Below, piece by piece: positions 30,473-41,838 of a DNA stretch of 64,000 nt. Positions within the stretch are counted from its first letter, which is position 1, and the number at the start of each line of letters is the position of its first letter. The DNA is from an uncultured Slackia sp. (GTDB lineage Bacteria > Actinomycetota > Coriobacteriia > Coriobacteriales > Eggerthellaceae), in assembly GCF_944321625.1 (NCBI RefSeq), contig NZ_CALUMA010000021.1, positions 1 through 64,000 on the forward strand. Reading direction: 5' to 3'. The position numbers and the translations under genes were made by a program. The notes beneath the pieces are model-generated. The model had not been told where the DNA came from, searched no databases, and worked only from the letters and a program-made list of their open reading frames with translations.

Positions 30473-32899
30473 ATGTCAGGAGCTACAAGCCCGCATGCCG
30501 GGATGACGCGCAGGAACTTTCTCAAAACCGCAGGCGTAGCGGCGGGCGCATTGGGCCTTGCCGGCGCTGCAAGCATGACCACCGCCGATAATTGGCTAGC
30601 ACCCGCCGAGGCGCACGCCGACGGCGAGGAGCGCGTGGCGCATCTGTGCCATCAATTCCACTGCCTCACGGGATGCAATCTGAAGTGCACCATCCGCGAT
30701 GAGCGCGTCTCCATCATTGAGCCCAGCGATCTCGCCGAGGAAAGCCATCAGACCATCTGTCTGCGCGGCATCGGCGAAGTCGATCACATCTATGCCGCCG
30801 ACCGCATCCAGACTCCGCTCAAGCGCGTGGGCGAGCGCGGCGAAGGCAAGTTCGAGGCTATCAGCTGGGATGAGGCAATTCAAACGATCGCCGACGCCAT
30901 CAAATCTGCTCAGGAGCAGTATGGCGAGGGCTCGGTATTCATCCGTAAGTCCACCGAGGCGAGCATCGACTTCGACTTCTTTGGTCAGCTGATGAAGGCC
31001 GATTCTGGCGGAAACTGGGGCCTGGACCGCGGCCAGCCGAACGGCACCGCTGCGGCGTTCGGCGCATTCAGCTACTGCCCGAATCGTTCTATCCATGAGT
31101 TCTCGGATGCGTCCACCATCATCGAGCTCGGCCACAACCCGCTCGAGAGCGGCATCGTGTGGTCTCGTGCTCTGATGGATGCTAAGGAGGCAGGCGTCTA
31201 CATCGTGACCGTCGACCCGCGCTTCACCGGCACCGCATCCAAGTCCAATGAATGGCTGCCCGTGCTGCCCGGCACCGACGCTGCACTGATCCAGGGCATG
31301 ATTCGCGCTATCGTCGACGAGGGCTGGTATGACGAGGAGTTCATCAAGAGCAAGACGTCGCTGCCGTATCTGGTCGATCGCGAGACCGGCAAGACCTATC
31401 GCAGCGAAGACGTCATGTGCCCCAACCCGACGGTCGTGGGCATGCTGACCGTGGGCGCTCCCTATGTGTGGGATGAGGCCGAGGGCAAGGCACGCCTGTA
31501 CAACGAGGAAGGCGTCCAGCCTGCTCTCGAAGGTACGTGGACGATTAACGGCAAGGAATACACCACCGAATGGACGCTCCTGAAGGAGTGGATCTCTGAG
31601 TATTCCGTCGACTGGGCTGCCGAGACCTGCGGCATCGCCAAGGAGACCATCATCGCTCTTGCCGACCGCTATGCCAACAACGGTCCCGCCATCATCGACT
31701 TTGGCCTGGGTGGTCCCGACAAGTACACCAACGCCGACGTGCTCGGTCATTCCACGTCCATCCTGGTCGCCATCACCGGCAACTATGGACGCAAGGGCTC
31801 CGGCATGGGCTTCTTCGGTGGCGTAGGCGTTGACGATCCGGCCGCAACGGTGAACTACTGGACGCTTCCCGAAGGTTACGGCTACACGAGCTGCGGCACC
31901 GCCATGTACGACATGCCGTACAACGAGAACCCGATTCATGTTGCCCTTACGTTCGGCGACGCCTTCACGCTTGAGGCCGCTGCTGCGAATGACATGCTGA
32001 ACTGGGTGAAGTCGCTCGACTTCTTCGCCATCATCGACATTTATCACTCCTCTGCTGTGGACTACGCCGACATCGTGCTGCCTGCATGCTCTAAGTTCGA
32101 GTCCGAGGAGAACGTGAAGTCGCTTCGTGCGAGTTACGGTCATGTCATGCTTGCAAACAACCTGATTAAGCCGCTGTTTGAGTCCAAGACCGACCTGCAG
32201 ATCGAACGCCTGCTTGCTGCTCAGTGGGGTCTCGAGGACACGTTGCCCGAAACCTACGAGGAGCTGGCGCGCTTCATGCTCGACGGAGTTGAGGAGCTCG
32301 ATCCCCGCATGGCGGGCATCACCTACGACGCTCTCCTTCAGCAGGGTGGCTGCATGGCGCTTCCTGAGACCGGTCCCGATTATCGCCCTGACGGTACCGC
32401 CGACAATCTGCCGACGCCTTCCGGCAAGGTGGAGCTCTACTACGAGTATCTGACTGACTGGGGTCATCAGTTCCCGGTGTACACCGATGCGAACGAAGCG
32501 TACGCCTCCAACCCGATCAAGGAACAGTATCCGCTGTACTTCATGCAGGGTAAGAGCCGCTACCGCATCCATGCGTACTACACCGCATGCGAGTGGTTCC
32601 AGGAGAACTTCGGTCCGTATGTCAACATCAGCCCCGAGGACGCTGAGGCTCGCGGCATCCAGACCGGCGACACCGTGCGCGTGTTCAACGACCGTGGCGA
32701 GTTCAAGTGCGGCGTCCATGTGAACCGCAGCCTGCAGCCCGGCGTGCTCTTCATGGCTGAGACCACGTACACCCGCTACTACGACGAGGGCTTCCTGCAG
32801 AACGTGACGAACTCTCATCGCGAAGATCGTCAGTACGACATGTATTTCGGTCCGCAGATTCCGTACAACGATGTTCTCGTCCAGATTGAGAAAGCGTAG
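30473..32899 (+). CDS. Tat-exported molybdopterin oxidoreductase, DMSO-reductase family, catalytic subunit
   Basis: The 808-residue protein has a twin-arginine signal (TRRNFLKTAG, Arg13-Arg14). The N-terminal [4Fe-4S] site uses C64-x3-C68-x3-C72 and C96 (TICLRG); an extra Cys59 precedes it. The molybdopterin-binding body follows, with IIELGHNPLESG, VDPRFTGTASKSNEWLPVLPGTDAALI and the C-terminal dinucleotide-binding domain (YRIHAYY, VNISPEDAEARGIQTGDTVRVFND). It is the first gene of a complete operon: Fe-S subunit, NrfD anchor and TorD chaperone. The set suits a menaquinol-fed terminal reductase outside the membrane, for example for an S- or N-oxide; the substrate is not decided by sequence. 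GAAGGGGGAG precedes the ATG. Confidence 0.9.
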   Translation: MSGATSPHAGMTRRNFLKTAGVAAGALGLAGAASMTTADNWLAPAEAHADGEERVAHLCHQFHCLTGCNLKCTIRDERVSIIEPSDLAEESHQTICLRGIGEVDHIYAADRIQTPLKRVGERGEGKFEAISWDEAIQTIADAIKSAQEQYGEGSVFIRKSTEASIDFDFFGQLMKADSGGNWGLDRGQPNGTAAAFGAFSYCPNRSIHEFSDASTIIELGHNPLESGIVWSRALMDAKEAGVYIVTVDPRFTGTASKSNEWLPVLPGTDAALIQGMIRAIVDEGWYDEEFIKSKTSLPYLVDRETGKTYRSEDVMCPNPTVVGMLTVGAPYVWDEAEGKARLYNEEGVQPALEGTWTINGKEYTTEWTLLKEWISEYSVDWAAETCGIAKETIIALADRYANNGPAIIDFGLGGPDKYTNADVLGHSTSILVAITGNYGRKGSGMGFFGGVGVDDPAATVNYWTLPEGYGYTSCGTAMYDMPYNENPIHVALTFGDAFTLEAAAANDMLNWVKSLDFFAIIDIYHSSAVDYADIVLPACSKFESEENVKSLRASYGHVMLANNLIKPLFESKTDLQIERLLAAQWGLEDTLPETYEELARFMLDGVEELDPRMAGITYDALLQQGGCMALPETGPDYRPDGTADNLPTPSGKVELYYEYLTDWGHQFPVYTDANEAYASNPIKEQYPLYFMQGKSRYRIHAYYTACEWFQENFGPYVNISPEDAEARGIQTGDTVRVFNDRGEFKCGVHVNRSLQPGVLFMAETTYTRYYDEGFLQNVTNSHREDRQYDMYFGPQIPYNDVLVQIEKA

Positions 32900-32909
32900 G
32901 TGAAGCGTC

Positions 32910-33527
32910 ATGACGAGACTAGCTATTGCTATCAATAAGACGCGCTGCATCGGTTGCCAGACGTGCGCTTTCGCCTGCAAGATGCAGAACAACGTGCCTG
33001 AAGGCATGCGTTGGAATAGGGTCATCACCGAGGGCTGCGATGTCGAAGACGGTGCGCTCGGAACGTATCCCAACCTGAGCCGTTCGTATCTGCCCATCGC
33101 CTGCCAGCACTGCGAAAACCCCGCGTGCCAGCGCGTATGCCCCACGGGCGCTACGTATAAGGACGACAAGGGCCGCGTCGAAATCGATTACGACAAGTGC
33201 ATCGGTTGCCGCATGTGCATGGCGGCGTGCCCGTACAACGCACGTGTGTTCAACTGGAACGAGCCGGTTCGCAAGCCCGATTTCAACTTCGGCGACAAGG
33301 AAGTTCCTGTACGCCCCAAGGGCGTTGCCGAGAAGTGCACGCTGTGCAAGGAGCGCACCGATCGCGGCGAAGAGCCCATGTGCGTGAGGTGCTGCCCCAC
33401 CAAGGCCCGCACCTATGGCGACCTGGACGATCCCAATTCTGAGATTTCCAAGCTCATCGCTGAGCGCCATGCCTATGTCCTGCTCGAGGAGCAGGGCACC
33501 AAGCCGCAAGTCCATTACTTCGAATAA
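32910..33527 (+). CDS. Four-cluster ferredoxin-like subunit (DmsB type)
   Basis: The 205-residue Fe-S protein has four cysteine groups: CIGCQTCAFAC, CQHCENPACQRVCP, CIGCRMCMAACP and CTLCKERTDRGEEPMCVRCCP. These are enough for four [4Fe-4S] clusters that wire the membrane subunit to the molybdenum site. There is no signal peptide, so it is carried across by the Tat signal of the catalytic subunit, as in DmsAB. It starts ten bases after the catalytic-subunit stop and is followed by the NrfD gene 15 bases on. Confidence 0.95.
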   Translation: MTRLAIAINKTRCIGCQTCAFACKMQNNVPEGMRWNRVITEGCDVEDGALGTYPNLSRSYLPIACQHCENPACQRVCPTGATYKDDKGRVEIDYDKCIGCRMCMAACPYNARVFNWNEPVRKPDFNFGDKEVPVRPKGVAEKCTLCKERTDRGEEPMCVRCCPTKARTYGDLDDPNSEISKLIAERHAYVLLEEQGTKPQVHYFE

Positions 33528-33542
33528 GGAGGGGGTGCAACC

Positions 33543-34757
33543 ATGACTTCTGGCAAGACGAAAATCGCGTACGCCGTGCTGGGCATTCTGACCGTCGCCG
33601 GCATCGCCGCCTGGATCTATCAGTTGATGGGCGGCTTGGGCGTGACCGGTATGAACAACGGCACGTCGTGGGGCCTCTACATCGGATGCTTCATGTTCTT
33701 CGTGGGCCTTTCCGCTGGCGGCCTGATTGTGGCCTCTTCGGCGAGCGTGTTCCACGTGGCCGAGTATAAGAAGGTGGCGCTTCCCGCCGTCATTCTGTCC
33801 ACGGCATGCATCTGCGTTGCTGGTATTTTCGTCCTGGTTGACCTGGGCGGTATCCAGCGTGTGTGGCGCATCATCACCGGATTCAATCCCACCTCGCCTC
33901 TGTGCTGGGATATCTGCGTGATCTGCCTCTATCTGGTCATCAACATCATCTACCTGGTGTTCATGACCTCCAACAAGGACGACGCTGACCGCAAGGTTGC
34001 CATCGTGAGCCGTTTCGCTCTGCCTGTGGCAATTCTGGTTCACAGCGTGACCACATGGATTTTCGGCCTGCAGCTTTCTCGCGAGGGCTGGTATTCCGCC
34101 ATCATGGCTCCGCTGTTCGTCGTCTCCGCCATGGATTCCGGTCTCGCTCTGCTGATGCTGGTCTTGGGCGGCCTCAACAAGTCCGGCTGGTTCAAGACCG
34201 AGAAGAAGCTCATGTCCAGCCTTGCCGGCCTGCTTGCCACCTGCGTGGCAATCGACGCCTTCCTGGTTGGCTGCGAGATTCTGACCATGGTCTATCCCGG
34301 CGCTGCCGGAGCTGAGACGCTCGCCATCATGGCGTCCGGCGTTACCGCGCCGTTCTTCTGGGCAGAGATCCTGCTGGGTCTTCTGATTCCGTTCTGCATC
34401 CTTGTGTTCGCTCGCAACCGCGAGAACATGGGGCTCGTGATGTTCGCGAGCGTGTGCATCGTGATCGGCGTGTTCTGCAAGCGCATCTGGCTGCTGTTCA
34501 CTTCCTTCTTCATGCCCAACGTGTATGGCGCTCCGGGTATCATCAGTGGCTCCAGCGCTTCGGCGCATGCGACCGGCATGGACGTTTGGGCCGTTGTGGG
34601 CACCTATGCTCCTACGTGGGTCGAGATCGTCATCGTGATCGGCGTGATTTCGCTTGGCGCTCTGGCGTTCCTGGTGTTGTGCCAGAAGCTTCTGCCCGCC
34701 GCCAAGACGGCCGAGGCGGATGGCGCGAATGCTGCCGCCGAGGGTGCTGCCGCCTAA
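33543..34757 (+). CDS. NrfD-type membrane anchor and menaquinol-oxidising subunit
   Basis: The 404-residue protein has about nine to ten helices. Its N-terminus carries the family motif MNNGTSWGLYIGCFMFFVGLSAGGL, seen as GTSWGLYI followed by VGLSAGG. Later motifs are GGIQRVWRIITGFNPTSPLCWD (in two parts) and SREGWYSAIMAPLFVVSAMDSGLALL. It should take electrons from menaquinol and pass them to the Fe-S subunit. AAGGAGGGGG lies before the ATG. The C-terminal tail is Ala/Glu rich. A hairpin with a T-tail separates it from the chaperone gene. Confidence 0.92.
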   Translation: MTSGKTKIAYAVLGILTVAGIAAWIYQLMGGLGVTGMNNGTSWGLYIGCFMFFVGLSAGGLIVASSASVFHVAEYKKVALPAVILSTACICVAGIFVLVDLGGIQRVWRIITGFNPTSPLCWDICVICLYLVINIIYLVFMTSNKDDADRKVAIVSRFALPVAILVHSVTTWIFGLQLSREGWYSAIMAPLFVVSAMDSGLALLMLVLGGLNKSGWFKTEKKLMSSLAGLLATCVAIDAFLVGCEILTMVYPGAAGAETLAIMASGVTAPFFWAEILLGLLIPFCILVFARNRENMGLVMFASVCIVIGVFCKRIWLLFTSFFMPNVYGAPGIISGSSASAHATGMDVWAVVGTYAPTWVEIVIVIGVISLGALAFLVLCQKLLPAAKTAEADGANAAAEGAAA

Positions 34758-34835
34758 ATCGCGCGGAATAGCCGCTGCGGGCACCGCCACGGGGCAATCC
34801 CTTAAAGCGCGGCGCCTCAAACGGCCTCTTCCTTG

Positions 34836-34878
34836 GGGCCGCACGTACCTCCCTCCCCAACGTGCGGCCCTTTATTTT
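34836..34878 (+). terminator. Terminator-like hairpin between the NrfD and TorD genes
   Basis: GGGCCGCACGT (34836-34846) pairs with ACGTGCGGCCC (34860-34870), then TTTATTTTGC. It lies inside the operon and likely lowers chaperone-gene expression relative to the structural genes. Confidence 0.75.
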
Positions 34879-34903
34879 GCTAGTACACGACGGAGGTGCT
34901 TTC

Positions 34904-35608
34904 ATGACGAAAGAGTCCATGCCTTGGCAAACGCTTTCCGAGGCGTATGCGTTTCTGGGCAACTCGCTGCTCGCTCCTATGAGCCAGACGTCTGCGGTGG
35001 GGCTTGACCCTGAGTTTTGGCGGGCGTTCCCCGATTTCGGCGATGCTGGCGTGTCTGACGCGGCTGCTGGATGCCTTGGCTATGCCGAAGGTGCTGTTGC
35101 ACGTGCCGAAGAGGGTGCGAATGTCGTTCAGGATGCCTCCGTCGAATACACCAAGCTGTTCATCGGCCCGCCTTCGCCTTCAGCAGCTCCATGGGAAACT
35201 ATGTATCGTTCAGATACTAATGTGGGTTTTGGCGAGGCGACCTTCCAGATGAAGGCATTGCTCAAGAATGCCGGTCTTGAGGTGAAGAACGAAAACCACC
35301 AGTACGAAGACCATATGGGCATCGAGCTTTTGTACCTTTCCGAACTATGCCGTCGCCGCGCGATGCAGGAGGCGGGTGGCCGTGATGCCGCTTCGGCATC
35401 GGACAAGCCCGCGGATGGCGCGGAAGACTTAGCATGTGCTTCCGAAAGCGATGCTTCTGTGTTCACGTTCATCGAGACGCATCCCCTGAGCTGGATCGAT
35501 ACATTCCATGCCCGCATCGTCGAGACGTTTCCCGAGGGCTATTTCGCCAATCTGACGGCGCTTGCCGCCGCGATCTTGCGGTTCCACACCAAGGCGATTG
35601 CCCGATAG
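34904..35608 (+). CDS. TorD/DmsD-type redox enzyme maturation chaperone
   Basis: The 234-residue all-helical protein matches the TorD family: VEYTKLFIGPPSPSAAPWETMY (E-Y-x-x-L-F-x-G-P and P-W-E), then NHQYEDHMGIELLYLSELCRR (D-H-x-x-x-E-L). It binds the Tat signal of the molybdoenzyme and holds it until cofactor loading. An insert at about 167-193 (Ala/Asp/Ser-rich) is longer than usual. The ATG at 34904 follows CGGAGG; the frame extends 14 codons upstream. It is the last gene of the operon, followed by a terminator. Confidence 0.88.
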   Translation: MTKESMPWQTLSEAYAFLGNSLLAPMSQTSAVGLDPEFWRAFPDFGDAGVSDAAAGCLGYAEGAVARAEEGANVVQDASVEYTKLFIGPPSPSAAPWETMYRSDTNVGFGEATFQMKALLKNAGLEVKNENHQYEDHMGIELLYLSELCRRRAMQEAGGRDAASASDKPADGAEDLACASESDASVFTFIETHPLSWIDTFHARIVETFPEGYFANLTALAAAILRFHTKAIAR

Positions 35609-36037: not shown

Positions 36038-39000
36038 ATGGCAGCGCAATTCAGGATCGCGCCGGCTGACCCGGCGCTTGTTTCGCTTATTCAACAGGAA
36101 TTCGGCCTCGCGCATTTCGTTGCGCGAACCATGGTCGCACACGGCGTGGGCAGCGTCGAAGAGGCGCGCATGTTCCTTTCGCCCGATATCGAGCGCGACT
36201 GGCGCAACCCCTACGAGATTCCGCAGATGAAAGAGGCGGCCGATCGCATCGAGCGCGCGATTCGCGACGGCGAGCGCGTTCTGGTGTTCGGCGACTTCGA
36301 CCTGGACGGCATTTCGGCCACCACGGTGCTCACGCGCGGATTGCGCGAGCTGGGTTGCGACGCCGTGCCGTTCATCCCCAAGCGTTTCGATGAAGGTTAT
36401 GGCCTGACGCCCGCCGCAATCGAGCGCGCGTGCGCCTACGAACCCAGCCTCATCGTCACGGTTGACTGCGGCATCTCGTGTAAAGAGGAAGCGCTTCTTG
36501 TGACGGATGCGGGCATCGACCTGGTGGTGACCGACCACCATGAGCCCGGCACCATGGTGCCCGAGGGCGTGCCCGTGGCAGATCCCAAATGCGACCCCTC
36601 GTGCGAAAGCTCCATTCTCGCCGGCGTGGGCGTGGCTCTTAAGATGGTGCAGGTGTTGGGAGGTCGCATGGGCCATCCGCATCTGTGGCGCGAATACACT
36701 GACTTTGCCACGCTGGGAACGGTGGCCGACCTCATGCCGCTGACGGGCGAGAACCGCGCTCTGGTCGCCGACGGCATCGCCCGCATGAATGCTACCCCGC
36801 GCCCCTGCATCGCCGCCCTTGTGGGCGTGTGCAATGTGGCGGGCAAGCCCCTCTCTTCCACGAATCTCAGCTTCTCGCTTATTCCGCGCCTCAATGCGGC
36901 GGGCCGCATGGGCAACGCCGATTTGGCGCTCGATCTTCTGATGACCGACGATTTCGAAGAGGCCCAGCAAAAGGCCGCCGAGCTCGACTGCGTGAACAGC
37001 GAGCGCCGTGCCATCGAGGCTGAGCTCGCCGAGGCCGCCAAGGCGAAGGCCGCCGCGTCATATTCCGGCGAGCGCGCGCTGGTGGTCGCGGGTGAGGGCT
37101 GGCACGAAGGCGTCAAGGGCATCGTCGCATCGCGCCTGGTGAACACCTATGGCGTTCCGGCGTTGCTCTTCACCATCGACGGCGACGAGGCGCGTGGAAG
37201 CGGTCGCAGCGTGGGCAGCGTGAACCTGTTCAAGGCCGTGGAGTCCACCTCCGACATCCTCACGCGCTTCGGTGGACACGAGGCCGCTGTGGGCGTGACG
37301 CTTCCCGTGGGCAAGCTCCCCGAATTCACTGAGCGCCTGTGCGCCTATATGGACACGCTCCCCGAAGACAGCTTCCACCCGCTTATCGAGGTGGACGCGG
37401 TGATCGACCTGTCCGAGCTCACGCTTCCCGCCGTGGAGAGCCTCGACCGCCTGGCTCCGTTCGGTCAGGAAAATCCCACGCCGCGCTACCTGGCGCACAA
37501 CGTTCGCCTGGCCAATTGCCGCGCGGTGGGCGCGAACAAGAACCATCTCTCGTGCTCGCTTACCGATGGCGTGACCTCGGTGGACGGCATCATGTTCCAC
37601 TGCGACGGCATCAGCTCGCTCATGACCTGCGGCTGCGTAGTGGATGCGGCGTTCCAGGCCCAGGTGGACGAGTGGCGCGGCCGCCGTTCCGTCAAGTGCA
37701 TGCTCGATGCCATCGAGCCGGCGAGCACCTGCCCCGCGCTACGTGCCTGCCTGCCCGATGAAGAGATCGACTTCGTGAGCGAGCTTTACGACATCGACCG
37801 CGACCTTGAGGAGGCGGGCGACGACCCGTGCGGCTGCGGCCAGGCCGACTGCCGCGCGCGCTGGCAGACGCTCTTCCGCGAGGACCCCCAGGAATTTACG
37901 CGCCGCCTGATTGCGGCGTTCATCGGCGATGCCTCGCTCCACGACTCCCAGCGCCGCGCGCTCGACGCGCTTGCGCAGGGCAAGAACACGCTCGCGGTCA
38001 TGGGCACGGGGCGCGGCAAATCGCTCATCTTCCAGGTGCATGCCGCACGTGTCGCGCTCACGCAGGGCAAAGCATCGGTGTTCGTGTACCCGCTGCGCGC
38101 GCTCCTTGCTGACCAGCGATTCCATCTCGCCTCGGCCTTCGAGAGCCTGGGGCTTGCCGTGGCCGCGCTTTCGGGCGAGACGCCCCTGTCTGAGCGCCGC
38201 CGCGTATACGCCGGTCTTGCCGACGGCAGTGTGGATGTGGTGCTGACCACGCCCGAATACCTAGCGTTCCATGCGGACGATATCGCCGCGTGCCATCGCG
38301 TGGGCTTCTTCGTGGTTGACGAGGCCCATCATGTGCTCCAATCGGGCGCCGGCCGCCGTACCGCCTATCTGAACCTGGGCATCGTGGTGTCCAAACTCGG
38401 CAACCCCACGGTGCTCGCCGTGACCGCCACCGCTCCGGCCGAGGTCGAGGAATCGGTGTGCCAGACGCTGGGCATCGAAGAGGTGGTGCGCGACGACCAC
38501 GCGCGCTTCAACCTGGGGCTCGATGATCGCCGCAGCATGCGCGACAAAGACAGCTACGTGGCAGGCATTATCGCCACGGGTGAGAAGACCGTGGTGTACG
38601 TGAATTCGCGCCTGGGCACGGTGGACGTTGCCCGCACGCTGCGCACCATGGTGCCGCAGGTGGCCATGCAGATTGGCTTCTACAACGCTGGCCTCTCGCG
38701 CGAGGAGCGCGAGCGCGTTGAGCGCCTGTTCCGCGAGGGCGTGCTGCGCGTGCTCGTGTGCACGTCGGCATTCGGCGAGGGGGTTGATATCCCCGACATC
38801 CGCCACGTGGTGCTCTATGGCATGCCGTTCTCCGAGATCGAATTCAACCAGATCAGCGGGCGCGCCGGGCGAGGCGGCCAGGACGCGTGCATCCATGTGC
38901 TCTTCGGCAAGCGCGATGTCATGCAGAACGAAGGCATCCTGCAGGGAAGCGCTCCCGACCACGACGCCATGGCGTGCATCTATCGCGAGCTCAAGCGCCT

Positions 39001-39442
39001 GCAGCGCGAGGCTGAGGTGCAGGTTGCCGCCGGCGCGTTGGCGCATGGCGGCCAGCCGTCGGGTCCGGGTGCGGCCTCGGTGCACGAGGGCGAGGTTTTC
39101 TTTACAATATCCGATGAAGACTTGGCGGGTGCCTGCATGGCGCGCCGGCCTCGTTTCGTCATAGATGCTCAGGCATGCAGCTGCGGCATTTCGGTGTTCG
39201 AGGAGCTGGGCCTGGTGCGCACGTACGATCCGTGCGGATGCGCCTCGCGCGCGCATGCGGTGCACGTGTGCATGGGCGCGAGCAAGGTCGAGCTGACCGA
39301 CAGCGTGCTGTATCGCGAGGGGATGGGCGACATGGAAGAGTTCGCCCGCTTCAGGGAATGGGTTATGCGCAGCCCTGCCGACGTGCTGCGCGGGCGTATC
39401 GTGCGCCCCATGCTGTCGGATGAACCGCAAGGGGGAGAGTAG
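36038..39442 (+). CDS. recJ: RecJ exonuclease fused to a RecQ-like helicase
   Basis: One 1134-residue frame joins two enzymes. Residues 1-570 are RecJ: DHH-family motif I FGDFDLDG (84-91), VDCGIS (142-147), TDHHEPG (165-171), the DHHA1 region GGHEAAVGV and the OB-like PFGQENPTPRYL. From about 630 there is an SF2 helicase: Walker A MGTGRGKS (about 654-661), the YPLRALLADQ segment, DEAH (VDEAHHVL, about 760-767), TATAP and motif VI QISGRAGRGGQD (about 936). Cys clusters lie in the linker (CGCGQADC) and near the end (CSCG, CGC). RecJ degrades 5' ends of ssDNA and RecQ unwinds for it, so the fusion joins RecF-pathway partners. No frameshift or internal start is evident. It is followed after two bases by rel. 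Confidence 0.92.
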   Translation: MAAQFRIAPADPALVSLIQQEFGLAHFVARTMVAHGVGSVEEARMFLSPDIERDWRNPYEIPQMKEAADRIERAIRDGERVLVFGDFDLDGISATTVLTRGLRELGCDAVPFIPKRFDEGYGLTPAAIERACAYEPSLIVTVDCGISCKEEALLVTDAGIDLVVTDHHEPGTMVPEGVPVADPKCDPSCESSILAGVGVALKMVQVLGGRMGHPHLWREYTDFATLGTVADLMPLTGENRALVADGIARMNATPRPCIAALVGVCNVAGKPLSSTNLSFSLIPRLNAAGRMGNADLALDLLMTDDFEEAQQKAAELDCVNSERRAIEAELAEAAKAKAAASYSGERALVVAGEGWHEGVKGIVASRLVNTYGVPALLFTIDGDEARGSGRSVGSVNLFKAVESTSDILTRFGGHEAAVGVTLPVGKLPEFTERLCAYMDTLPEDSFHPLIEVDAVIDLSELTLPAVESLDRLAPFGQENPTPRYLAHNVRLANCRAVGANKNHLSCSLTDGVTSVDGIMFHCDGISSLMTCGCVVDAAFQAQVDEWRGRRSVKCMLDAIEPASTCPALRACLPDEEIDFVSELYDIDRDLEEAGDDPCGCGQADCRARWQTLFREDPQEFTRRLIAAFIGDASLHDSQRRALDALAQGKNTLAVMGTGRGKSLIFQVHAARVALTQGKASVFVYPLRALLADQRFHLASAFESLGLAVAALSGETPLSERRRVYAGLADGSVDVVLTTPEYLAFHADDIAACHRVGFFVVDEAHHVLQSGAGRRTAYLNLGIVVSKLGNPTVLAVTATAPAEVEESVCQTLGIEEVVRDDHARFNLGLDDRRSMRDKDSYVAGIIATGEKTVVYVNSRLGTVDVARTLRTMVPQVAMQIGFYNAGLSREERERVERLFREGVLRVLVCTSAFGEGVDIPDIRHVVLYGMPFSEIEFNQISGRAGRGGQDACIHVLFGKRDVMQNEGILQGSAPDHDAMACIYRELKRLQREAEVQVAAGALAHGGQPSGPGAASVHEGEVFFTISDEDLAGACMARRPRFVIDAQACSCGISVFEELGLVRTYDPCGCASRAHAVHVCMGASKVELTDSVLYREGMGDMEEFARFREWVMRSPADVLRGRIVRPMLSDEPQGGE

Positions 39443-39444
39443 CC

Positions 39445-41838
39445 ATGGCAGAACAGAACCACGCTCACAGTGTTATCGCATTGCCGGTCGAGCCCGAGCT
39501 CGCCGATGCGATCGGCGCCCTCTCCATAGATTCCTACGACGGGGGCATCGCTCCTTCGGCCGCGGCGGGCGAGGATATGGCGCCTGATGCGCGCTTCGCT
39601 GAGCTCGAAAAACGCGCGTCGGCATACCTCTCCGAGGACGCCATGGAGCTCTTGCGCAAGGCCTACCATTTCGCCGACAAGGCCCATGCCGGCCAGCAGC
39701 GCAAAAGCGGCGAGCCTTTCATCGCGCACCCCATCGAGGTGGCGCTCATCCTCGCCGATCTGCGCATGGATGTAGACACGCTGTGCGCCGCACTGCTCCA
39801 TGACACGGTGGAGGACACCGATGTGACCGTCGAGCAGGTGGCCGAGGACTTCAATCCTGAAATCGCGCAGCTGGTGCAGGGCGTGACCAAGATCACGCAG
39901 ATTGCCGTGGAGAGCCTGACCGACGAGCAGGCGGCTACCATCCGCAAGATGTTCGTGGCCATGAGCAAAGACATTCGCGTCATCGTGATCAAGCTTGCCG
40001 ACCGTCTGCATAATATGCGCACGCTGCAGGCGCTTCCCGAGGACCGCCGCATCTTCAAGTCGCACGAGACGCTCGAGATTTACGCGCCCATCGCCCATCG
40101 CCTGGGCATCGGCTCCATCAAGTGGGAGCTCGAAGACCTGTCGTTCTTCTACCTGGAGCCCGCTAAGTTCAAGCAGATCTCGCGCATGGTGGCCGAGAGC
40201 CGCGAAGAGCGCGAGCGCTATCTGGCCAACGTGATTGAGACGCTCTCCGCCGAGCTTACGCGCCTGGGCATCAAGGCGCACATCGCGGGGCGCCCCAAGC
40301 ACCTGTACTCCATCTACCAGAAGATGACCAAGCGCGGCAAGGGTTTCTCCGAGATTTACGACCTGATTGCCGTGCGCGCCATCGTGGAGTCGGTGAAAGA
40401 CTGCTATTCGGCACTGGGCGCGGTGCACTCACTGTGGCACCCCATGCCGGGCCGCATCAAAGACTACATCGCCATGCCCAAGCTCAACATGTACCAGAGC
40501 TTGCACACCACGGTCATCGGCCCCTCTGGTCGTCCGCTCGAGGTGCAGATTCGCACCGAAGAGATGCATCGCATGAGCGAGTACGGCGTTGCCGCGCACT
40601 GGCGTTACAAAGAGAAGGGCAGCAAGGCCGACGCCGCATTCGACAAGCAGATCGCGTGGCTTCGCCAGGTGGTGGAGCGCATGGAGGAGACGGACGATTC
40701 GCGTGAGTTCATGAGCGAGCTCAAGATGGACCTCGCGCCCACCGAGGTGTTCGTGTTCACGCCCACGGGCGACGTGAAAAGCCTGCGCGCCGGATCGACG
40801 CCGGTGGATTTCGCCTACGCCGTGCATTCCGAGGTGGGCAATCACTGCGTTGGCGCCAAGGTGAACGGCGCGATCGTGCCGCTTTCCTACGAGCTTCAGA
40901 CGGGCGACCGCGTGGAGATTCTCACGCAGAAGAGCGCCACGCCCTCGCGCGACTGGCTCAAGATGGTGAAGACGCCTTCGGCCCGCAGCAAGCTACGCAG
41001 CTATTTCTCCAAGGTCAGCCGCAGCGACGATCTGGCGCTCGGCCGCGAGAAGCTTGCCCGCGAGCTCAAGAAGCACGGGCGGGGCCTGGGGTCTACTGCC
41101 AGCATCCGCGCGCAGAAGGCTGTGGCCGAGCAGATGGGCTACAAGGACGCCGACGACATGATGGTGGCGGTGGGCGCCGGCAAGGAAACGGTGCTCCATG
41201 TTGCCAACCGCCTGGTGAAGGCATTGGCGCCTGAGCCCGAGGCGGAGCCGCGCCCCGTGTCCACCATCATGACCACGGGCACCATGCCGCCCATGCTCAC
41301 CATGACCAAGCGTCCCGCCGCAGCCGCCCGCAAGGGCAAGTCTTCCAACGGCGTCGTGGTGGCGGGCCTGGACAACGCGCTCGTGCGCCTGTCGCGTTGC
41401 TGCAACCCCGTGCCCGGCGACGAGATCATCGGCTTCGTCACGCGTGGTCGCGGCGTGTCCATCCATCGCGCCGACTGCCCCAATGCCAACGACCTGATGC
41501 GCGACAAGGGCCGCCTGATTGAGGTGCATTGGGAGGATTCCGCCGAAAGCGCGGCATCGTTCCAGGTGGAGGTATATATCGAGGCGCTCGACCGCCTGAA
41601 CCTCCTGCGCGATATCATCAACACCATCTCGGACACCGGCGTGAACGTGCTTTCGTCCAACACCGTGAGCCATTCCGACGGCATCGTGGAGATGCGCTAC
41701 CTGTTCCAGGTGTCGCAGCTCTCTAACATTGAAAAGATTCTGGAATCGTTGCGGCATATCGAGGGCGTGTTCGAGGCGCGTCGTATGCTGCCAGGAAACA
41801 ATCCCCACGCCGGACGCGGCGGGAAGAAGAAGCACTAG
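39445..41838 (+). CDS. rel: Bifunctional (p)ppGpp synthetase/hydrolase
   Basis: The 797-residue RelA/SpoT homolog makes and breaks the stringent-response alarmone. It has the HD hydrolase domain with His95 and His119-Asp120 (LLHDTVEDTD) intact, the synthetase domain (RPKHLYSIYQKMTKRG, IYDLIAVRAIV), TGS (VFVFTPTGDVKSLRAGSTPVDFAYAVH), a helical/zinc-finger part with RLSRCCNPVPGDEIIGFVTRGRGVSIHR, and a C-terminal ACT domain. Both activities should be present. There is an N-terminal extension of about 50 residues. It starts two bases after recJ (site GGGGGAG) and is followed by an MBL-fold gene. Confidence 0.95.
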   Translation: MAEQNHAHSVIALPVEPELADAIGALSIDSYDGGIAPSAAAGEDMAPDARFAELEKRASAYLSEDAMELLRKAYHFADKAHAGQQRKSGEPFIAHPIEVALILADLRMDVDTLCAALLHDTVEDTDVTVEQVAEDFNPEIAQLVQGVTKITQIAVESLTDEQAATIRKMFVAMSKDIRVIVIKLADRLHNMRTLQALPEDRRIFKSHETLEIYAPIAHRLGIGSIKWELEDLSFFYLEPAKFKQISRMVAESREERERYLANVIETLSAELTRLGIKAHIAGRPKHLYSIYQKMTKRGKGFSEIYDLIAVRAIVESVKDCYSALGAVHSLWHPMPGRIKDYIAMPKLNMYQSLHTTVIGPSGRPLEVQIRTEEMHRMSEYGVAAHWRYKEKGSKADAAFDKQIAWLRQVVERMEETDDSREFMSELKMDLAPTEVFVFTPTGDVKSLRAGSTPVDFAYAVHSEVGNHCVGAKVNGAIVPLSYELQTGDRVEILTQKSATPSRDWLKMVKTPSARSKLRSYFSKVSRSDDLALGREKLARELKKHGRGLGSTASIRAQKAVAEQMGYKDADDMMVAVGAGKETVLHVANRLVKALAPEPEAEPRPVSTIMTTGTMPPMLTMTKRPAAAARKGKSSNGVVVAGLDNALVRLSRCCNPVPGDEIIGFVTRGRGVSIHRADCPNANDLMRDKGRLIEVHWEDSAESAASFQVEVYIEALDRLNLLRDIINTISDTGVNVLSSNTVSHSDGIVEMRYLFQVSQLSNIEKILESLRHIEGVFEARRMLPGNNPHAGRGGKKKH

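Follow-up and report, generated by a model that had tools for sequence, protein, structure and literature searches.

In the window, a 64,000-nucleotide stretch of DNA from a gut bacterium, an uncultured Slackia sp. (family Eggerthellaceae, class Coriobacteriia; contig NZ_CALUMA010000021.1, positions 1 to 64,000), one gene encoded a RecJ exonuclease and a RecQ-like superfamily 2 (SF2) helicase in a single chain. The same architecture was found across the class. We consider it fairly probable that the protein is a single-chain nuclease–helicase for 5′-end resection and stalled-fork processing, with a motor that is older than the class and has decayed in relatives.

Architecture, conservation and spread of the fusion

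The gene was a single intact frame of 1134 codons, running from ATG to TAG. It contained no N, and its GC content at third codon positions was even throughout (0.79–0.87). The order along the 1134-residue protein was RecJ (DHH, DHHA1 and OB domains), SF2 helicase and C-terminal domain (CTD). Pfam matches to DHH (residues 80–228), DHHA1 (347–438), RecJ_OB (452–556), DEAD (637–805) and Helicase_C (843–947) were all above cut-off. In NCBIfam the whole protein scored as RecJ (TIGR00644, 476.2 bits; cut-off 396.9), and name-based annotation would therefore hide the motor; a Pfam run on the protein suffices to reveal the fusion. The features were located as follows.

36038..39442, + strand: recJ–helicase fusion gene, 1134 amino acids (frame, Pfam, NCBIfam)
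36275..36721, + strand: DHH phosphoesterase domain, residues 80–228 (PF01368)
36290..36310, + strand: DHH motif I GDFDLDG, residues 85–91 (D86, D88 and D90 invariant in 32/32)
36530..36541, + strand: DHH signature TDHH, residues 165–168 (D166, H167 and H168 invariant in 32/32)
37076..37351, + strand: DHHA1 domain, residues 347–438 (PF02272)
37391..37705, + strand: RecJ OB domain, residues 452–556 (PF17768)
37706..37912, + strand: short Cys-bearing linker, residues 557–625; site of HIRAN in most deep relatives, empty here
37946..38452, + strand: SF2 helicase lobe 1 (RecA1, DEAD), residues 637–805 (PF00270)
38006..38023, + strand: Walker A TGRGKS, residues 657–662 (T657, G660, K661 and S662 invariant in 32/32)
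38318..38332, + strand: motif II DEAHH, residues 761–765 (D761, E762, H764 and H765 invariant in 32/32)
38453..38911, + strand: SF2 helicase lobe 2 (RecA2), residues 806–958 (PF00271 at 843–947); the homologous region of helicase-free RecJs lacks the motifs
38849..38872, + strand: motif VI QISGRAGR, residues 938–945 (Q938, G941, R942, G944 and R945 invariant in 32/32)
38945..39439, + strand: C-terminal domain, residues 970–1134; common to helicase-free RecJ C-termini (hhalign E 1.8e-6 to 2.6e-9, four groups)

All catalytic motifs of both enzymes were conserved without exception in 32 of 32 aligned fusions, with D86, D88, D90, D143 and D166-H167-H168 invariant in the DHH part and K661, D761-E762, G941-R942 and G944-R945 in the helicase. 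Together with the Pfam and TIGR00644 matches, this bears out the preliminary description, which had read from the sequence a RecJ exonuclease and a RecQ-like helicase with both motif sets intact. The nearest named relative, S. equolifaciens, also encoded a 1134-residue fusion protein (95% identity). Synonymous and non-synonymous codon differences between the two stood at 185:19 in the RecJ half and 100:14 in the helicase half. The fusion is a genuine gene, and purifying selection acts on both enzyme halves.

A class search drew 296 Coriobacteriia genomes, 292 of which matched, and the architecture was read for all 296. RecJ and helicase shared one frame in 274 genomes, five of them showing one internal stop codon (G257, G163, G255, G246 and G028). 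The exceptions were mostly contig breaks: in 14 genomes (G244, G285, G092, G183, G293, G087, G131, G061, G119, G135, G032, G125, G190 and G258) the parts lay on different contigs or were seemingly cut at a contig end. A frame change within the RecJ half, either a sequencing error or real, split the gene in one genome (G234, locus L188). RecJ was not found in five genomes with an estimated completeness of 59–86% (G103, G041, G113, G145 and G149), and two genomes of one genus had RecJ only (G007 and G091; loci L185 and L186). The fusion thus belongs to the class as a whole and is not peculiar to this locus. In a phylum search, recJ matched at E ≤ 1e-3 in 123 of 296 genomes, 77 of them above cut-off. 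Thirty loci were fetched from this search, and 24 of them lay outside Coriobacteriia: five were fusions (families f30 and f83) and 19 were not fused. No fused Bacillota RecJ was found among the few plasmid and phage records read.

HIRAN, the linker and the predicted activity

A HIRAN domain was detected by Pfam in 18 of the 32 fusions (best E 1.5e-18), and a one-by-one scan found it between OB domain and helicase in six of eight, including two f30/f83 proteins. Linkers of the HIRAN type were about 167–190 residues long; that of L159, which has no HIRAN match, had 238. The linker measured 71 residues in the window's protein, 69–82 in Eggerthellaceae, and 15 and 39 in family f6. Because HIRAN occurred in 18 of 32 fusions, including two of f30/f83 with long linkers, and the linkers of Eggerthellaceae were short, the domain was probably ancestral in the fusions and lost in the window's family. 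A HIRAN remnant in the short linkers was considered and rejected, the only matches being weak ones to the helix that ends the HIRAN-type linker (best independent E-value 0.038).

Some HIRAN match was present in 194 of the 296 class genomes, many of them in small stand-alone frames. Such small frames were common in families whose RecJ fusion is without HIRAN, and the window's own genome held a stand-alone HIRAN protein in a 127-amino-acid frame (G000:C26:19062-19337, − strand; locus L184/L189).

Cys-rich linkers that may bind zinc had also been suggested for the protein. Since the linker cysteines C598, C600 and C605 recurred in 6%, 12% and 6% of 33 fusions, and the C-terminal C1066 and C1068 in 6% and 3%, a conserved zinc site in the linker or C-terminus is not supported.

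In its available part, PMC4846377 describes RecQ as a 3′→5′ helicase that frees the 5′ strand for RecJ, needed in E. coli for blunt or 3′-overhang ends; the same source reports that RecQ and SSB stimulate the RecJ of D. radiodurans at 3′ overhangs. In the mechanism we propose for the fusion, the RecQ-like motor would load on a 3′ single strand, move 3′→5′ and peel off the complementary strand from that strand's 5′ end, for the attached RecJ core to degrade 5′→3′. HIRAN, where present between RecJ and motor (most deep relatives), may hold the 3′ strand or end, or the fork junction. With these predicted activities, polarities and their coupling, a RecJ that has its motor attached would need no partner on blunt and 3′-overhang ends. 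The fusion would have been passed down within the class as a single gene immediately preceding relA. Its motor probably predates the class and decayed in those relatives that keep only a motif-less lobe 2 and the CTD. In Bacteroidales (L135, L136 and L140), recJ and recQ were adjacent, separated by 9 bp or sharing 8 bp, and in a Prevotella record the two frames followed in the same reading frame. Genes that touch in this way lend independent support to the coupling.

In the textbook case RecJ and RecQ cooperate as separate proteins, whereas here a whole class relies on a RecJ with its own motor, to which deep relatives add HIRAN, known as the part of eukaryotic HLTF/Rad5 that binds forks. The fusion therefore offers a ready-made covalent system for studying how unwinding is coupled to 5′ digestion.

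Alternatively, the motor might serve mainly in fork remodelling (HLTF-like regression) or gap repair, with RecJ trimming the nascent strand and double-strand-break resection a minor role; we regard this as credible but the less probable assignment. The HIRAN domain of most deep relatives speaks for it: according to the available text of PMC4666394, HLTF HIRAN binds single-stranded DNA and forks, with a preference for forks, directs HLTF to them and is required for fork reversal. The loss of HIRAN in the window's family speaks against it, and recO, which was present in the window's own genome, is compatible with either role. No AddA above cut-off was found in that genome, in which frames of 1252 and 813 amino acids matched weakly.

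The C-terminal half and the origin of the motor

Regions of the fusion were compared with groups of helicase-free RecJs by profile–profile comparison (hhalign). In helicase-free Actinomycetota RecJs, the C-terminus gave a colinear alignment to lobe 2 and CTD together, with E 1.7e-11 across 240 columns; 200 shuffles of the columns reached E 0.087 at best. The pair L163/L164 matched at E 3.5e-15 (189 columns). A separate pair of alignments, 13 Eggerthellaceae against 9 helicase-free sequences, gave E 2.5e-14 over 230 columns. Against the helicase-free Actinomycetota RecJs, lobe 2 alone still matched (E 7.4e-5 and 5.3e-5), and lobe 1 remained at noise level (E 0.098 and 0.62). The GRxGR motif was missing from them at the aligned place; they therefore have no working motor. 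Some of these helicase-free frames (L171–L174) extended several hundred residues upstream.

The CTD was also common to Bacilli RecJ (E 2.2e-7) and Oscillospiraceae-type RecJ (E 1.5e-8). Profile–profile comparison of PF10141, the C-terminal domain of Bacilli RecJ, with the fusion CTD gave E 2.2e-7, and none of 100 shuffles was as good. As a direct Pfam match, PF10141 was absent from the window's protein, reached 19.2 bits in L144 (cut-off 26.4) and appeared in five of 32 fusions at E up to 10 (best 4.7e-4). When the CTD was compared with the 'act' group, one outlying shuffle scored 132.5 against an observed 46.7; the maximum of 200 new shuffles was 22.0. Lobe 2 alone was not significant on its own against Bacilli RecJ or the N-terminal half of PF10141 (E 0.14–0.4), and its match to Oscillospiraceae-type RecJ (E 0.0051) covered only 19 columns, so that a significant lobe-2 match was confined to the helicase-free Actinomycetota RecJs. 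Searching the PDB with the final 184 residues of the fusion returned nothing significant. In a fold search with a model of the C-terminal part (predicted local distance difference test, pLDDT, 78.2), RecQ lobe 2 dominated, and the S. aureus RecJ 8y30 was not among the 50 matches listed.

Judged from these alignments, a decayed second helicase lobe seems to persist in helicase-free RecJs, and the simplest reading of the C-terminal homology is decay of an older motor. Such a decayed lobe offers an origin for an otherwise unexplained domain. More tentatively, and with a probability that we place a little short of even, the RecJ of the ancestor shared by Actinomycetota and Bacillota may have been a nuclease–HIRAN–helicase, of which lobe 1 and HIRAN were lost elsewhere, leaving a dead lobe 2 and the CTD. 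If so, that ancestral machine still operates in Coriobacteriia and in a few deep lineages, and the poorly understood C-terminal domain of firmicute RecJ (Listeria, S. aureus) would be a helicase fossil.

We consider it unlikely that the helicase, instead of being ancestral and later lost, was acquired late and independently by Coriobacteriia and by f30/f83. Late gain draws on the RecJ tree, in which the fusions stood in two places (two changes; none of 200 bootstrap trees with one); whole-gene transfer may also be the source of this pattern. Both groups, however, share the order of parts including HIRAN, and the helicase-free RecJs keep the lobe-2 remnant and the same CTD. In the helicase tree, all fused motors lay on one side of a branch with 100/100 support, opposite four RecQs. 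This tree, with its small outgroup (the four RecQs) and long f6 branches, had been rebuilt without four distant fragments; in the earlier tree with them, branches were long and the fusion group needed two changes.

The nearest relatives of the motor among solved structures were RecQs, both by sequence (4tmu, 108 bits) and by fold (Z about 28–32 over 330–343 residues across the RecQ family). Its SF2 helicase motifs were intact, but the RecQ family models were missed (TIGR00614, 171.6 against 219.8 bits; TIGR01389, 172.3 against 640.2 bits). RecQ carries an aromatic-rich loop after motif II (SQWG.DFRP), which was present in the RecQ of the window's own genome and in a Prevotella RecQ. The W of this loop was absent from all 23 fusions (of 27) that the motif pattern caught, and Pfam gave no match to RQC, HRDC or the RecQ zinc domain in the window's protein up to E 10. 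By family tests the motor is not a RecQ; of the preliminary assignment, the RecQ-like SF2 helicase stands and RecQ itself does not. A separate, complete RecQ was encoded on contig C14 of the same genome (670 bits with its parts joined, above cut-off), which contradicts a RecJ fused to the organism's own RecQ in replacement of the separate protein. Although the motor's best structural and sequence neighbours are RecQ family members, that origin is very unlikely given the missed cut-offs, the absent loop and accessory domains, and the placement of the fused motors on their own 100/100 branch apart from the four RecQs. An assembly join or chimera of two genes, for which no supporting point was found, is refuted by the same frame in 274 of 296 genomes, named isolates and metagenome-assembled genomes (MAGs) alike, and by purifying selection on either side of the junction.

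Several observations weigh against a single-chain nuclease–helicase with a motor older than the class. G007 (estimated 100% complete) and G091 (92%) had cleanly lost HIRAN, helicase and CTD: their frame stopped just past the OB domain and relA followed at once, and their congeners G003 and G005 kept the fusion. This is a clean recent loss of the helicase, and the motor is therefore dispensable somewhere. HIRAN was absent from the window's own protein by Pfam, and with neither the aromatic-rich loop nor the RQC parts of RecQ, RecQ behaviour may not carry over to the motor. The two groups of fusions in the RecJ tree fit two gains or a transfer too. By sequence, a profile of helicase-free RecJ C-termini (A5) found no helicase in the PDB; its weak matches, to eS19 and GntR (E 0.06–0.57), were not significant. 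Finally, the AlphaFold model of the fusion was weak across domains (pLDDT 69.6, predicted template modelling score 0.41), and the relative placement of the domains therefore cannot be read from it.

Genomic setting and known systems

The gene that followed the fusion was relA/spoT, starting two bases past the fusion stop codon.

39445..41838, + strand: relA/spoT (TIGR00691, 815 bits)

Its ribosome-site-like GGGGGAGAG fell within the last codons of the fusion gene. relA lay downstream of the fusion in 13 of 13 named relatives and directly after recJ in two Clostridia; in Listeria, an adenine phosphoribosyltransferase gene stood between. With relA adjoining recJ here, in relatives and in Clostridia, this is therefore the usual recJ locus, except that the gene includes a motor. 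The window's own genome encoded three DHH proteins, the fusion and two others, whose frames span 321 and 333 amino acids. As the latter are too short for RecJ, the fusion is the only recJ of the genome, beside its true recQ. Window positions 30473–35608 held an operon for a DMSO (dimethyl sulfoxide)-reductase-like molybdoenzyme, with catalytic, iron–sulphur and membrane subunits and a TorD-like chaperone, all genes scoring below specific family cut-offs. In S. equolifaciens and one Slackia MAG it stood immediately ahead of the fusion.

A literature search of titles and the starts of abstracts, with subscription papers and preprints outside its scope, returned no description of a RecJ–helicase or RecJ–HIRAN protein. 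Within the same scope, a whole-phrase search for RecJ with 'HIRAN domain' gave no paper; the matches listed for the word start 'hiran', which also catches surnames, were not about HIRAN. The components themselves are known. The literature searched yielded neither the architecture nor its fixation across the class, the HIRAN module or the link to helicase-free RecJs.

Compared with known systems, the RecJs of S. aureus (8y30), D. radiodurans (5f54) and T. thermophilus (2zxo) have the same order of DHH, DHHA1 and OB domains and the same motifs. Of these, 8y30 was among the best matches of the fusion model, and the CTD is common to Bacilli RecJ, but none of the three matched the SF2 motor by sequence. 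These RecJs are not known to have HIRAN between OB domain and C-terminal domain. RecQ proteins (E. coli and C. sakazakii RecQ; BLM, WRN and RECQL) are nearest to the motor by sequence and fold, but the motor scores below their cut-offs, shows no aromatic-rich loop, RQC, HRDC or RecQ zinc site, and coexists with a separate recQ. The RecQ–RecJ–SSB resection system, as described in the available part of PMC4846377, unites the pair of activities predicted for the fusion, proposed to act on the same DNA end; it consists of separate proteins, whereas the fusion is one chain, to which HIRAN is added in most deep relatives. HLTF/Rad5 fork remodellers of the HIRAN–SWI/SNF type carry HIRAN beside an SF2 motor (PMC4666394, available part), as do the HIRAN-type fusions, but that motor belongs to another SF2 subfamily, and the fusion adds a predicted 5′–3′ nuclease and has no RING domain. 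DinG with an N-terminal exonuclease (S. aureus) is another helicase–nuclease fusion, reported in Eggerthellales and Coriobacteriales in the part of PMC12345164 available; it joins a 3′–5′ exonuclease to a 5′–3′ helicase, and its parts are unrelated to those of the RecJ fusion. The recJ–recQ pair of Bacteroidales has the same order in adjacent genes, but yields two proteins where the fusion is one.

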